Assembly: GCA_016937155.1 (NCBI GenBank)
Contig: JAFGWM010000073.1
Coordinates: 1 to 34,718 of the forward strand
DNA length: 34,718 nt
Direction: 5' to 3'
From: Deltaproteobacteria bacterium
GTDB lineage: Bacteria > Myxococcota_A > Polyangia > HGW-17
Shown here: piece after piece, positions 294 through 5,690 of the stretch
How the letters are laid out: every line of letters starts with the position of its first letter
Position numbering within the stretch: position 1 is the stretch's first letter
Notes under the pieces: generated by a model
Databases searched by the model: none
What the model saw: only the letters and a program-made list of their open reading frames with translations
What the model was told of the DNA's origin: nothing
Translations under genes and position numbers: made by a program

Positions 294-1196
294 ATGAAAT
301 TGCTGACTCTAATACTGATGTTAATTGTTTCCAGTCAGGCCACTGCACAAACTACTGGCCGCGAAAAACCTGTTTCTTTGAAAAAAGAATTTCTGGTTTA
401 CACACCAAAATGGGAAAACATTAAAAGAATTCCATTGTTTGTACAAAACAAGATTGAAAAGAAGTTGATGGAATCTGATACAAAATTTGGCTGGGAGCCT
501 AAACAGGTTGGGTTACTTCAGTACTCTATGAGATCATTTCTTAAAAAAGTTGAAAACACATATTTTTTTCAACTGAAAATATATACACTTTCCGGTGTAG
601 AGATTGCCACCGAAACCGGAAGATGTGAAATATGCACAATTACGGAAACAGTTGACTCAATTTCAGAGTACCGAGAAAAACTTCTGGCCAAGCTTGAAAA
701 TCACTACAATCTTAATATGAAAGCATACATTGATGCAGAGAAAAAACAAAAAGCCAAAGAGCTTGCCAGAAAAGAAGAAACCGACAGGAAACGAAGGGAA
801 TATGAGAAAAAATTGAAGGAAGCATCCATTCCTCTGATAAAGGGTGAAATTCAGTCTCCTGATAATCTTAAGTTCCCAGCATGGAACCATCCACCGCCTC
901 CATTTAAACTATGGTTCTGGTCTACTTCCGTTTTAGGGACAGCAGCTCTCATTACCGGAGTTACTCTGCTAGCTATTGATAACGGAGCTACCTGCTCCGC
1001 AGATTATACCCAAAGATGTCCAGAAAGATATGCAACTGGTGCAGCGGGTGCAGGTTTTTTAATTACAGGAGCGGCATTAGGAGGAGTTGCCACCTGGCTC
1101 TTTTTTAAAATCACTGAAAAGGGAGACACTCCTTTTTCAATTGTTCCATCAGTATCAAAAGACAACGCGGGAATTAATTTTGGTTTTTCTTTTTAG
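294..1196 (+). CDS. Exported CxxC protein with C-terminal two-TM segment, unknown function
   Basis: 300 aa. The ATG at 294 is chosen because it begins a clean signal peptide (MKLLTLILML.. cleaving near ATAQ, residue 19); upstream in-frame codons add an unlikely leader. The ribosome site is weak. The mature part has a small domain ending in RCEIC (C111, C114), then a Lys/Glu-rich coiled-coil stretch (about 145-177) and a proline run. Two hydrophobic helices follow (about 206-228 and 249-271), joined by a loop with C234 and C242 and a Tyr/Arg before the Gly/Ala-rich second helix. This order resembles the C-terminal part of PEGA-type membrane proteins of myxobacteria, but I see no PEGA motif. 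The next gene is a Cys-rich lipoprotein 19 bases downstream, so the two may work together at the envelope. Function unknown. Confidence 0.8.
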   Translation: MKLLTLILMLIVSSQATAQTTGREKPVSLKKEFLVYTPKWENIKRIPLFVQNKIEKKLMESDTKFGWEPKQVGLLQYSMRSFLKKVENTYFFQLKIYTLSGVEIATETGRCEICTITETVDSISEYREKLLAKLENHYNLNMKAYIDAEKKQKAKELARKEETDRKRREYEKKLKEASIPLIKGEIQSPDNLKFPAWNHPPPPFKLWFWSTSVLGTAALITGVTLLAIDNGATCSADYTQRCPERYATGAAGAGFLITGAALGGVATWLFFKITEKGDTPFSIVPSVSKDNAGINFGFSF

Positions 1197-1215
1197 CATT
1201 ATTACGGAAATGACT

Positions 1216-1755
1216 ATGGTAAAAATATCTTTGATTATACTTACTTTGGCTGGGTTCATCTCCTGTACAGAGCCGAATCCAGATTATGATCCCAATTATG
1301 AGCCTCCATGCAAAGCCGGCACCCTCTCATGTAACGATGAATCAACAGAAATCACTGTCTGCATTAAAGATGACACTAATACCATGACGTGGCAGACAGA
1401 CCGAACATGCTGGGAAGATACTCTATGCTCTGATGGCTTTTGTGCTCCTGAAAGCTCAATTTCCACCTGTGAAACTCAATCCGAATGTCCACCTACATAC
1501 ATTTGCACAGCTCTGGCTGATTCGAAGACTTCTATTAACAGTTATTGTATAAAAAATGTCAATCCCGAAGGAAGAGATGGAGGATATGCCTGTTCATCAC
1601 ATGATTCATGCAAAAGCGGGTGGTGCTTCAGAAACACATGTTTCACTCCCTGTATGACATCTGATGACTGCCCTCTTGATACTGAATGTACTACCCTGAA
1701 TATCACAATCGACAATATCCAGGATTCAGTTTTGGGATGTACTATCCAGAAATAA
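1216..1755 (+). CDS. Cys-rich lipoprotein, unknown function
   Basis: 179 aa. The start at 1216 gives a short lipoprotein signal MVKISLIILTLAGFIS with the lipid-carrying Cys at residue 17 and a GGAA ribosome site six bases upstream. A second ATG six bases earlier (1210) is possible. An open frame extends further upstream but overlaps the previous gene and has no signal. After the lipobox I count 18 cysteines in about 160 residues, an even number. They are spaced in short CxxxxC and CxxxxxC runs, as expected for a disulfide-stabilised secreted domain. No catalytic motif is visible. It is probably co-transcribed with the exported protein at 294 and the SpoT-like gene at 1773. Confidence 0.85.
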   Translation: MVKISLIILTLAGFISCTEPNPDYDPNYEPPCKAGTLSCNDESTEITVCIKDDTNTMTWQTDRTCWEDTLCSDGFCAPESSISTCETQSECPPTYICTALADSKTSINSYCIKNVNPEGRDGGYACSSHDSCKSGWCFRNTCFTPCMTSDDCPLDTECTTLNITIDNIQDSVLGCTIQK

Positions 1756-1772: not shown

Positions 1773-4049
1773 ATGAACTTTTTCAGCCCCACAGCCAGAG
1801 CAAATGCACTTAAACCTGAAATCAAAAAGCTGGTTTGGGAACCGTGGAAACAATGGTGGGAGGATGAATCCATTAGAGAGCGGCACATCAACTCGATTGT
1901 TCGCTCCTGTTCTAATCTGTTGAACTTCATATGGCGCCACTGGGGAAATCAGGAAGATGTGTTTAATGACATAGAGAAGGCTCTCCTTTTTGCAATTAAA
2001 GCCCATGCCCGACAGAGCCCGCGAAAAACTGGTGAGCCATATGTAAGCCATCCAATCAGTGTTGCTACGAATTGTGCAGAACACGGAATTGATCGTGAAG
2101 GAATAATCAGTGCTCTTTTGCATGATGTAATTGAAGATACCGAGTACTCTGAAGAAGAAATTATCAGAACATTCGGCACTGATGTTGGAGAAATTGTAAA
2201 CGGTCTCAGCAAAGTCAAAAGTCACGATAAACATCTCATGGACAAAGACAAGGTGCAGACATTTTTTAAAATTATGGGGGCATCAGGACAGGATAATCTA
2301 ATTAGAACGGTACTCATTAAACTGCTGGATCGCCTTGATAATATGAAAACAGTTGAAGTATTCAGAGTTGAAAAAAGGCAAAGATACGCACGGGAAACTA
2401 TTTATATTTATTCATCTCTTGCAACTATACTTGGAATGAGAGAAATTGCCACTGAGTTGACCACCAAAAGTATGAAACCTTTTTTTACCAATGATTATGC
2501 TAGAGTGGCAGCTAAAAGCACCGAACGTCAAAACAGATATATAGCAGACAGAAATGAAATACAGGATCTTCTTAAAAATATCATAGGTGAAAGGGTAAAT
2601 GTAAAATTTCATCCACTGTATCCAACCATGGCGGATTTTCTTGACCCTTTGACAAAATCTCTGAAATTTGATGGAATTCCGCTTAAATTAAGGGTAAGAG
2701 TTCCTACCATACCAGACATGTACGTTGTTTTAGGAATGATTCATGGGGCCAATGCGATACAGGATTCACCTCAAAATTCAGGGCATCTCCATGTCATCCC
2801 CGACAGCTGGAAAGACTACGTTGTAAGTCCTCTGGCTAATGGATATAAAGCATTGACAACTCAGATATTTTTTAAAAATCATCCATGGCTCCTTGAGATT
2901 GTTTCGATGGAGACAGAGGGAACAATTGACTGGGGCATATTAAGTGACTTTAAAAATCCTGAACTTCGAAAGTTCTACTTCAAAAGTTTAAACGCATTTC
3001 TCAATAATATCATTGATATTGAAAATATGAGATACAGTGATCTGCAAAATGAAGCAGCAAACGCAATAAGCGATATCCAGGTGAGATGCAGGAATAATTT
3101 ATTCATGCGAATTCCAGTGGGTTCAACTGTCCTTGACGTTGCCTATATTCTTGATGGGGATCTGGGACTTTACTGCAAAGGAGCCAATCTTAACGGTCGC
3201 GAAGTAGACAGACTTCATAAGTTAAGACATGGCGATAATGTTGAAATTATCACCCAGACTGAACCGGTTATAAGCGAAAAATTCCTCACTGTTATGAAGA
3301 GCAGAAATGCTATTGACAACTATAGAAAAACAGTTCGTCTTTACTACATTGGTAAAGCCTATGAACTAGGTAAAGGGGTTTGTCTGAGGTTCCTTGAAGT
3401 TAATCAGATGAATGAATTAGATATATTTGATGAATCCGGTGAGCCGTCAATCCTCTCAATCGATGAAATAATTGATATCGGTCTTGGAAAAATCACTGCA
3501 TCCGAGGTTTTTGAATCTCACGGAATTTATATTCCATATCAGGGTCTTTTTAAAAAAGTGGTCAAAAAACTGCCGCGAAAGATAGACAGTTTTCACGACC
3601 TGATGTATCAGTACCCCGATTGCTGCAACATCGTTCCTTTGGTGGATGAAAATGCTGTTATGCAGCACATGAAAAGTACTGATGACCTTAACCATCTGGG
3701 TCTTATTCAGGTTCATTCTTCAAGTTGTCCTGTTCTGACTGAGGATTTACCTCAGATTCCAGTGGAATGGGATCTGGAATTTCCACCCAGGGTTATCCTT
3801 GAAGTTTATGTAAATGATACAATCGGGTTAGTTGGGAAAATCACCAGCCTGATTGGAAAGTATCATCTTAATATTACAGCTCTTAAGGCTGACAGCACAC
3901 CGGTTAAAAACGACTGGGTCAAAATTTTTATCACCCTTCACCTCAGAGAGGGTGAACAGGCGGAAATTGATCATAAGCGTTTTACCACCTGTATCAGGAC
4001 TTTGAAGAAAATAAAGGAAGTACGCAGTATTTCTTTGGCAAGGGAGTAG
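1773..4049 (+). CDS. SpoT/Rel-like (p)ppGpp hydrolase with degenerate synthetase domain
   Basis: 758 aa, long RSH architecture. Residues 1-60 are an unusual Trp-rich extension. The HD hydrolase domain (about 70-235) has H93 in YVSHPISVA, the catalytic HDVIED (H117, D118, E121, D122), and LLDRLDNMKT around 184-193. The metal-binding Asp and the following Asn of that last motif are kept, while the usual His is Asp. The synthetase region (about 272-385) is recognisable from YVVLGMIHG, WKDYVVSP and NGYKALTTQ, but it lacks the RxKxxYS, catalytic Asp and YQSLHT signatures. Then come TGS (443-495), a helical region, a conserved-cysteine domain (PDCCNIVP ... SSCP, 615-655) and ACT (673-755). It should degrade (p)ppGpp and probably cannot make it. 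AAAGGTG precedes the ATG. cysS starts 3 bases after the stop. Confidence 0.93.
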   Translation: MNFFSPTARANALKPEIKKLVWEPWKQWWEDESIRERHINSIVRSCSNLLNFIWRHWGNQEDVFNDIEKALLFAIKAHARQSPRKTGEPYVSHPISVATNCAEHGIDREGIISALLHDVIEDTEYSEEEIIRTFGTDVGEIVNGLSKVKSHDKHLMDKDKVQTFFKIMGASGQDNLIRTVLIKLLDRLDNMKTVEVFRVEKRQRYARETIYIYSSLATILGMREIATELTTKSMKPFFTNDYARVAAKSTERQNRYIADRNEIQDLLKNIIGERVNVKFHPLYPTMADFLDPLTKSLKFDGIPLKLRVRVPTIPDMYVVLGMIHGANAIQDSPQNSGHLHVIPDSWKDYVVSPLANGYKALTTQIFFKNHPWLLEIVSMETEGTIDWGILSDFKNPELRKFYFKSLNAFLNNIIDIENMRYSDLQNEAANAISDIQVRCRNNLFMRIPVGSTVLDVAYILDGDLGLYCKGANLNGREVDRLHKLRHGDNVEIITQTEPVISEKFLTVMKSRNAIDNYRKTVRLYYIGKAYELGKGVCLRFLEVNQMNELDIFDESGEPSILSIDEIIDIGLGKITASEVFESHGIYIPYQGLFKKVVKKLPRKIDSFHDLMYQYPDCCNIVPLVDENAVMQHMKSTDDLNHLGLIQVHSSSCPVLTEDLPQIPVEWDLEFPPRVILEVYVNDTIGLVGKITSLIGKYHLNITALKADSTPVKNDWVKIFITLHLREGEQAEIDHKRFTTCIRTLKKIKEVRSISLARE

Positions 4050-4052
4050 ATA

Positions 4053-5690
4053 ATGCCAGTAAATATTAGTGATGTAATGTCCGGAAAGAAAATTGAGTTA
4101 ATACCGAGAGATCCTGGTAAAATAGGCATTTATGTCTGTGGCGTCACTGTTTATGATCGTTGTCACATAGGACATCTACGCAGTATGCTTTCATTTGATT
4201 CAATAATCCGGCATCTGGAATACAGGGGTTATATTGTTAACTATGTAAGAAATTTCACTGATATTGATGATAAAATTTTAAATCGGGCAGAAGAAATTAT
4301 TGAAGGAGAGAATGGTGACTGGCGAAAACACGAAAGATATTTGACTTATACAGAAAATGAATGGAATCAGAGACTTGATGATGATAGAAAAATCAGAGAA
4401 ATAAATAAATCCTCTGGAAACCCTCTGGCTCTTGATGTTTCTGATTACTTTATCAGCCAGTTTGAAGCAGATATATCACCATACGGAATGCGTGCACCGG
4501 ATGTACAGCCTCGGGTCTCAACCCACATGGATGACATCATAGACTTAATCCGGAAAATCATTGCAAACGGATTTGGCTATGAAAGCGGAGGTGATGTCTA
4601 TTTTGATGTGGAAGCCTATCACTCCGAAACCGGGAATTATGGTGTGCTCAGCCGGAGAGATTACAGTCAACTGCGTGAAGGAGCACGAGTTTCTCCAGGA
4701 GACCTCAAAAAGAATGGGGTGGATTTCGCCTTATGGAAAGCGGCCAGAGCGGGAGAAGTATCCTGGGACAGTCCCTGGGGAAAGGGACGACCCGGATGGC
4801 ATATTGAATGCAGTGCGATGAGTTGTAATTACCTTGGAACATCCTTTGATATTCATGGTGGTGGTAAGGATCTAATCTTCCCTCATCACGAGAATGAGAT
4901 TGCTCAGAGTGAAGCAGGATACAGAGAAAAATTTGCCAGGAACTGGATGCATAATGGATTTGTCACTGTTGATGGCGTGAAAATGTCCAAAAGCCTCGGT
5001 AATTTTCTCAGTCTGGATGACGCCGCCCAGTTAGCTCAGCCGGAAACATGGAGATTTCTTGTCCTTAGCGTGCATTATTCAAGTCCCATTGATTTTTCAA
5101 GAACCAGAAAAAATGCTGAAGGAGAAATCATACGGGGTTCAGTAGATGTTGCTGCAGAAAGAGTACAGTATTTTTACCAGACCATAGCCCGAGTTAATGA
5201 GTTACTGGAAAACATTGAAATAATGAGTGATGTGCCTTCCATCAAGCCCGAAATCGCAGGCAGACTCGTGGAAAAGTTCAATAATGCAATGGATGATGAT
5301 ATCAATACAGCAGTTGCCATAACTTATCTTGGGGAAGCAGCAAAAGCTATAAATGAGCTGGCCTCGATGAAGAAAAAGGAAGTTCGCAAAATTGGAGAAG
5401 AATCATACTACTTCACCCTGAGTGAACTGAGAAGAGAATTAATGATATGTGCTTCAGTCCTCGGAATTTTTCAGCGTAATCCAAATGAATTTCTGGAAGA
5501 AATGAAAAATTTTGAAATAAAAAGAAGGGGCCTCACCCATAATGAAATTCAGTCTGTCATCGATCTTAGAAAAGAAGCTAAGGATAACAGAAATTTCAAT
5601 AAGGCAGATGAACTTAGAGATTCACTTCTGGAAAAAGGTATTATGATAAAAGACATGCCCGGATTTACAACCTGGGATATTCGTTTCTAG
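4053..5690 (+). CDS. cysS: Cysteinyl-tRNA synthetase
   Basis: 545 aa class I synthetase that charges tRNA-Cys in the cytosol. The Rossmann core has YVCGVTVYD with Zn ligand C29, HIGH at 38-41, the remaining Zn ligands C253 (WHIECS), H278 and E282 (FPHHENE), and KMSKS at 310-314. The C-terminal helical part ends in RKEAKDNRNFNKADELRD, typical of the family. The protein is longer than the 461-residue E. coli enzyme. Comparing ligand positions (Cys209 against C253, KMSKS 266 against 310) places an extra 44 residues between HIGH and the second Zn ligand, mostly around residues 82-145; the rest of the excess is C-terminal. It is tightly coupled to the SpoT-like gene (3-base gap), and AGGGAG lies six bases before the ATG. 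Confidence 0.97.
   Translation: MPVNISDVMSGKKIELIPRDPGKIGIYVCGVTVYDRCHIGHLRSMLSFDSIIRHLEYRGYIVNYVRNFTDIDDKILNRAEEIIEGENGDWRKHERYLTYTENEWNQRLDDDRKIREINKSSGNPLALDVSDYFISQFEADISPYGMRAPDVQPRVSTHMDDIIDLIRKIIANGFGYESGGDVYFDVEAYHSETGNYGVLSRRDYSQLREGARVSPGDLKKNGVDFALWKAARAGEVSWDSPWGKGRPGWHIECSAMSCNYLGTSFDIHGGGKDLIFPHHENEIAQSEAGYREKFARNWMHNGFVTVDGVKMSKSLGNFLSLDDAAQLAQPETWRFLVLSVHYSSPIDFSRTRKNAEGEIIRGSVDVAAERVQYFYQTIARVNELLENIEIMSDVPSIKPEIAGRLVEKFNNAMDDDINTAVAITYLGEAAKAINELASMKKKEVRKIGEESYYFTLSELRRELMICASVLGIFQRNPNEFLEEMKNFEIKRRGLTHNEIQSVIDLRKEAKDNRNFNKADELRDSLLEKGIMIKDMPGFTTWDIRF

Follow-up and report, generated by a model that had tools for sequence, protein, structure and literature searches.

The long RSH gene near the start of a 34,718-nucleotide stretch of Deltaproteobacteria DNA (the window) raises the question of what a protein does that combines an apparently intact (p)ppGpp hydrolase domain with a synthetase domain whose catalytic residues are replaced, and which enzyme would then make (p)ppGpp in this cell. 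We analysed the encoded protein, P0001, together with its orthologues, its gene neighbourhood and the other long RSHs of its relatives. The most probable answer, to which we assign a probability of roughly 80% based on sequence comparison, is that P0001 is a monofunctional (p)ppGpp hydrolase and one half of a reciprocally specialised pair of long RSHs.

Domain layout and catalytic sites of P0001

P0001 is encoded by a single open frame with an ATG start. HD, synthetase-fold, TGS, zinc-finger and ACT/RRM domains are found in a single chain, which is the architecture of a long RSH. The features of the gene are as follows.

1763-1769, + strand: AAGGTGA, read from the sequence as a probable ribosome-binding site for the RSH gene
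1773-4049, + strand: predicted hydrolase-only long RSH (P0001), 758 aa (ORF, Pfam, NCBIfam, alignment)
1773-1952, + strand: N-terminal extension rich in Trp (residues 1-60) and conserved across family f1
1953-2477, + strand: HD (p)ppGpp hydrolase domain, residues 61-235, tested catalytic residues all present (Pfam, alignment)
2121-2138, + strand: HDVIED motif, residues 117-122 (sequence, alignment)
2490-2957, + strand: pseudo-synthetase domain, residues 240-395 (HHalign, MAFFT, dN/dS, fold)
2676-2678, + strand: Ile302 occupying the catalytic Asp position, D264 in RelSeq (MAFFT, HHalign)
2847-2861, + strand: KALTT instead of QSLHT, residues 359-363 (sequence, alignment)
2889-2894, + strand: Leu373/Leu374 occupying the catalytic Glu position, E323 in RelSeq (assigned to within one residue)
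3087-3263, + strand: TGS domain, residues 439-497 (Pfam)
3153-3155, + strand: Asp461 at the place of the tRNA-CCA-reading TGS His, which we take to be H432 in E. coli RelA (alignment)
3573-3752, + strand: zinc-finger-like domain, Cys/Cys/His/Cys present (alignment)
3786-4046, + strand: ACT/RRM-type domain (Pfam, structure comparison)

Pfam searches identified HD_4 (6e-29) and TGS (1e-10), with ACT_4 and ACT under their cut-offs. The RelA_SpoT synthetase match reached 15.4 bits and thus stayed under its 27-bit cut-off, the domain being recovered by profile and fold comparison. The NCBIfam spoT_relA subfamily model covered residues 70-731 with 266 of the 499 required bits. Residues 1-60 gave no Pfam match above cut-off. 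The first-pass annotation of this locus had pointed to this N-terminal extension as Trp-rich and unusual; it is indeed present, with 6 Trp in 60 aa, and is a conserved trait of its family. The nearest named relative found was the Myxococcota MAG Old_saline.mb.39 (74% identity in P0001), and divergence from bifunctional Rels is high (about 22-27% identity).

Residue positions were read in RelSeq numbering from a MAFFT alignment of P0001 with the long RSHs of its relatives. The class Rels used here are those that matched best in a sample of 59 related genomes and do not represent the class in full. The residue table omits the class Rels G025, G038, G039 and G041, two G018 fragments and the fragmentary G005 partner described below, and RelSeq, as numbering reference, is not counted in the residue and RLDNM tallies. 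All 12 tested hydrolase residues are present in P0001 (RelSeq=P0001: R44=R84, K45=K85, Y50=Y90, H53=H93, H77=H117, D78=D118, E81=E121, D82=D122, D144=D186, R145=R187, N148=N190, T151=T193). They are unchanged in 7/7 orthologues, or 8/8 where the truncated eighth copy covers the position. Judged by these residues, the hydrolase site is complete, as had been claimed before. A further remark of the first-pass annotation, that the Asp in the RLDNM motif is unusual, did not hold up, since Asp is ordinary at this position (25/35 class Rels and 4/4 in the order).

At the synthetase site, Y308 (Y358 in P0001) is the sole residue retained out of 11 tested. The substitutions are R241→K278, K243→H280, S247→T285, K251→F289, D264→I302, S310→A360, H312→T362, E323→L373, Q325→E375 and R327→V377. 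Among the hydrolase-only orthologues, D264, H312, E323, Q325, R327, R241, K251 and S310 are kept in 0/8 and K243 and S247 in 1/8; in the class Rels these positions are conserved in 31 to 35 of the 35 sequences. We additionally aligned the orthologue profile to 21 bifunctional Rel/SpoT sequences using HHalign (660 columns, probability 100). This placed Ile302 at the catalytic Asp, as did MAFFT, and Leu374 at the catalytic Glu, one residue off the MAFFT assignment (L373). The register of the Glu strand is thus uncertain by one, with a non-acidic residue at this place in both registers. Neither method puts a catalytic Asp or Glu in place, and their agreement, together with losses common to 8/8 orthologues, supports the earlier proposal of a catalytically dead synthetase. 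The replaced loop and QSLHT element that it had named were found as well (G-loop R241/K243/S247/K251 changed, KALTT in P0001). The combination of G-loop Arg/Lys, Asp, Glu and His that marks a bifunctional Rel/SpoT[HS] is absent from P0001.

An AlphaFold model of P0001 built with 21 sequences had a mean pLDDT of 79.5, with large parts of the HD domain at about 90-97; an earlier model with two sequences (pLDDT 38) was discarded. The top four Foldseek matches were chains of A. baumannii SpoT (7qpr; E 1e-25 to 2e-24) at 20-21% identity and a whole-chain rmsd of about 25 Å. The whole-chain pose is unreliable, and no compact state is claimed from the whole-chain superpositions (rmsd about 15-25 Å). 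The catalytic half could be matched to RelSeq (1vj7) using VIA-align with a Z of 31.5 and 2.2 Å over 309 residues, which argues that the domain fold is kept. According to the model, the pseudo-synthetase domain of P0001 retains a Rel-like fold.

This raises the possibility that P0001 is still bifunctional and uses a rearranged synthetase site misread by the alignments. The kept fold, Tyr358, the invariance of Glu375 and a position-278 Lys shared by 7/8 orthologues would be compatible with such a site. However, 10/11 tested positions are changed by MAFFT (Asp, Glu, G-loop Arg/Lys and His among them), HHalign agrees at Asp and Glu, neither strand register supplies a Glu, and an intact synthetase is encoded elsewhere in the genome, so that we consider residual bifunctionality very unlikely.

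Selection on the gene was read from dN/dS in two orthologue pairs only, G003/G005 and G004/G006, because dS was saturated for G000/G001. The pseudo-synthetase domain has a dN/dS of 0.074 in the first pair (dS about 1.6, near saturation) and no amino-acid change at a dS of 0.117 in the second (dN/dS about 0). These low values indicate that the domain is maintained, and from its sequence we regard it as a maintained pseudo-enzyme. The earlier description of the domain as worn-out is thus right for the lost catalytic residues but not for the domain itself, which is under purifying selection and Rel-like in fold. An alternative in which the whole gene is decaying and heading for loss is hardly credible: the long branch of P0001 and its orthologues in every tree would fit decay, but the frame is open in all orthologues found, the hydrolase residues are invariant, whole-gene dN/dS is 0.07 and 0.03 in the two readable pairs, and linkage to cysS is kept in 7/7.

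An intact synthetase in the same genome

The draft genome that contains the window (G000) comprises 85 contigs totalling 4.11 Mb and is 95% complete. A RelA_SpoT profile search of it found one other place, on contig C47 (140.7 bits). The long RSH encoded there has kept its synthetase residues, and its gene probably starts within the end of gmk. The first-pass annotation had predicted a separate (p)ppGpp synthetase, either a RelA or a small synthetase, elsewhere in the genome, and this gmk-linked partner fits that prediction. No small alarmone synthetase was seen in the 95%-complete G000 (RelA_SpoT matches up to E 1 were the two long RSHs only), nor did HD_4 give any other match over cut-off that would indicate a small hydrolase; two further weak HD_4 places were below threshold (E 0.0018 and 0.6). 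At about 95% completeness, the G000 draft may have missed a short synthetase or hydrolase. In two other assemblies, HD-domain ORFs of 155 aa (L095, G005) and 221 aa (L093, G011) carry HDxxED and are possibly small alarmone hydrolases or contaminating contigs.

The partner orthologues keep 11/11 synthetase positions in 7/7 copies. What the first-pass annotation did not foresee is that they have lost the matching hydrolase Glu: E81 of HDxxED is kept in 0/7 (A, A, G, G, L, N, D). The G005 genome has an eighth partner that is broken across two contig ends, with HDVDIT on L094 and an intact synthetase on L092. Alanine at A. baumannii SpoT Y51, E82, D83 or N147, the equivalents of RelSeq Y50, E81, D82 and N148, abolishes hydrolysis according to excerpts of Tamman et al. 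2022 (PMC9974481). By analogy, the loss of E81 should inactivate hydrolysis in the partner. D82 is kept in 5/7 copies and, apart from K45, the remaining hydrolase positions are largely retained, so that weak residual hydrolysis is possible.

Among 13 genomes of the order, 8 carry the hydrolase-only gene and all 8 also carry the partner (one in two fragments). Four genomes, belonging to two sister families, encode a Rel with the bifunctional pattern, one of which is truncated before the end of the synthetase domain. The remaining genome is 70% complete and neither RSH type was seen in it. In a phylum sample of 282 genomes, strong matches to the hydrolase-only type (E up to 1e-100) were found in G000 and G002 only; the type therefore looks confined to the order, of which this sample had few members.

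The survival of most partner hydrolase residues besides E81 also bears on the substrate of P0001. If the partner retained some (p)ppGpp hydrolysis, P0001 might cleave another nucleotide such as pppApp or NADPH, and the HD-type PDB relatives do include human Mesh1 with NADPH and a Bacteroides (p)ppApp hydrolase. For A. baumannii SpoT, the excerpted text lists R45, K46, K140, R144, N147 and T150 as guanine and pyrophosphate contacts (PMC9974481). P0001 keeps the equivalents of R45, K46, R144, N147 and T150 and has a Lys equivalent to K140 at position 183, which speaks against a different substrate and makes this alternative unlikely.

TGS histidine, linkers and gene neighbourhood

The TGS His, which is described as reading the tRNA CCA end and as lost in A. 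baumannii SpoT (PMC9974481, in excerpt), is replaced by Asp, Glu or Ala in 8/8 hydrolase-only copies. It is present in 7/7 partners and in 35/35 covered class rows; the TGS and spacing table holds 36 class rows including RelSeq, which has no residue at this position. The hydrolase-only copies have a Core spacing of 65-67 (66 in P0001) compared with a class median of 72, and a HEL-to-ZFD spacing of 101-105 (105 in P0001) compared with a median of 126. Shorter linkers are also reported for SpoT[Hs] in the excerpted source (PMC9974481). The alpha6-alpha7 spacing is unshortened, being 21 in nearly all sequences of every group and 30 in the f3 orthologue, and a shorter alpha6-alpha7 loop, reported for A. 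baumannii SpoT, is a correlate rather than a defining feature of SpoT[Hs].

Two neighbouring genes of P0001 recur beside its orthologues.

1087-1755, + strand: Cys-rich ORF upstream of the RSH gene, with a homologue upstream in 6/7 testable orthologues
4053-5690, + strand: cysS, cysteinyl-tRNA synthetase (named from sequence), starting 3 bases past the RSH stop

The Cys-rich ORF (window 1087-1755) had no Pfam match. cysS lies 3' of the hydrolase-only gene in 7/7 testable orthologues, an adjacency that possibly links cysteine charging to alarmone removal. gmk is found directly upstream of the partner in 7/7 and of the bifunctional order Rels in 2/4; beside hydrolase-only copies it was seen in 0/8, within available flanks of often 1-1.5 kb. 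In E. coli, spoT is located behind gmk and rpoZ, and this gmk-linked copy is the one keeping hydrolysis. Here gmk adjoins the partner, so it is the gmk-linked copy that turned into the synthetase, opposite to E. coli.

We propose reciprocal subfunctionalisation, in which each long RSH would have lost the other's activity. The partner, gmk-linked and equipped with its TGS His, would sense uncharged tRNA on the ribosome and make (p)ppGpp. P0001 would neither read tRNA nor synthesise alarmone and would continuously remove (p)ppGpp via its Mn-dependent HD site. Its pseudo-synthetase and C-terminal domains may act as a scaffold, keeping the hydrolase active and relaying other signals; candidate sources of these are the N-terminal extension, which is conserved, and the cysS operon. 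A scaffold role is described for the same domains of A. baumannii SpoT in the excerpted source (PMC9974481).

Origin of the pair and comparison with known systems

The partner copies formed one clade (100) inside the class Rels (SH-aLRT 97 and 99 in two trees), and joining them with the RelA clade was disfavoured at a borderline AU p of 0.0467. The hydrolase-only copies also formed one clade, with a very long branch in every tree. Joining this clade with the partner gave a lnL 6.2 above the free tree (p-AU 0.676), and joins with E. coli SpoT (p-AU 0.567) and with the f10 hydrolase copy (p-AU 0.701) were likewise not rejected. With the join to the partner allowed among others, we infer that the hydrolase-only gene may have arisen by duplication inside this lineage.

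Family f10 of the same class has what appears to be another divided pair. Its gmk-linked RSH (gmk in 5/5; L042, L045, L047, L049, L051) keeps HDxxED and has R241, K243 and K251 in 0/5. It retains D264, H312 and the TGS His, so this copy may still be weakly active. In the second long RSH (gmk in 0/6) the synthetase is intact and the hydrolase heavily degraded. It groups with E. coli RelA (100/100) and with RelA-like proteins encoded on contigs classed as viral (99), and a tree constrained to keep it with the class was rejected (p-AU 0.0163). This placement points to transfer of a RelA-type gene with subsequent degradation of the native copy, a split apparently separate from that of the order studied here. 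The f10 loci also include L043, L046, L048, L050, L052 and L054. The RelA-like genes on viral contigs (L114, L117, L120, L123-L125) are complete, lie at or near contig ends and presumably represent prophage host flanks. In family f20, L041 (G049; genome 70% complete) keeps HDxxED and the TGS His and has lost most synthetase residues (Asp264→Glu, Glu323→Thr). It could well be that one Myxococcota class split its bifunctional Rel into hydrolase-only and synthetase-only long RSHs twice and by opposite routes, the native gmk-linked copy turning into the synthetase and a cysS-linked, tRNA-blind copy into the sole hydrolase in this order, and the native gmk-linked copy losing its synthetase G-loop after gain of a beta/gammaproteobacterial-type RelA gene in f10.

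The closest known parallel to P0001 is Moraxellaceae SpoT[Hs], represented by A. baumannii SpoT (7qpr), which is likewise a long RSH with an active hydrolase and a pseudo-synthetase and is characterised as hydrolase-only in the excerpts of Tamman et al. 2022 (PMC9974481). There too the TGS His is lost, the Core and HEL/ZFD linkers are shorter and a synthetase-only RSH is encoded elsewhere. In contrast, P0001 belongs to another phylum, has a conserved Trp-rich N-terminal extension, cysS downstream and an unshortened alpha6-alpha7 spacing, and the partition maps the other way onto the gmk locus than in the Moraxellaceae SpoT[Hs]/RelA[hS] pair. The catalytic Asp and Gln, Ser and Thr in A. baumannii SpoT by the same excerpts (PMC9974481), are Ile and Glu in P0001. 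In expected function the partner resembles RelA[hS] of beta/gammaproteobacteria (synthetase intact, HDxxED broken, TGS His kept), but its hydrolase domain is barely degraded, it is gmk-linked and its place in the trees is among its own class's Rels rather than with RelA. Hydrolysis without synthetase activity is also a trait of small alarmone hydrolases (SAH, Mesh1), but these are single-domain, whereas P0001 keeps every long RSH domain. RshB, RshC and RshD are likewise divergent second Rel copies, the last found in four genera and placed in delta-proteobacteria; in the excerpted text of Atkinson et al. 2011 (PMC3153485) they are listed with both domains ([HS]) and no reciprocal split is described. 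Our search of the open-access literature turned up no report of a Myxococcota long RSH that is hydrolase-only or split. In the sources as excerpted, only Moraxellaceae are described as partitioning (p)ppGpp synthesis and hydrolysis completely between two long RSHs, and the Myxococcota split is best read as a new, separate case of a known kind.

As a separate case, the Myxococcota split allows the changes that accompany specialisation to be tested a second time. The missing TGS His and the shortened Core and HEL-ZFD linkers recur here; the shortened alpha6-alpha7 loop does not. Atkinson et al. 2011 (PMC3153485) argued that duplication-degeneration-complementation does not account for the common pattern of RelA and SpoT; reciprocal loss as in the present pair does fit this model. 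The seven intact partners, with their early and light hydrolase loss (mainly one Glu), may show the first step towards RelA. If the class did split its Rel twice, complete subfunctionalisation of the stringent-response enzyme would be a repeatable outcome and not a Moraxellaceae oddity.
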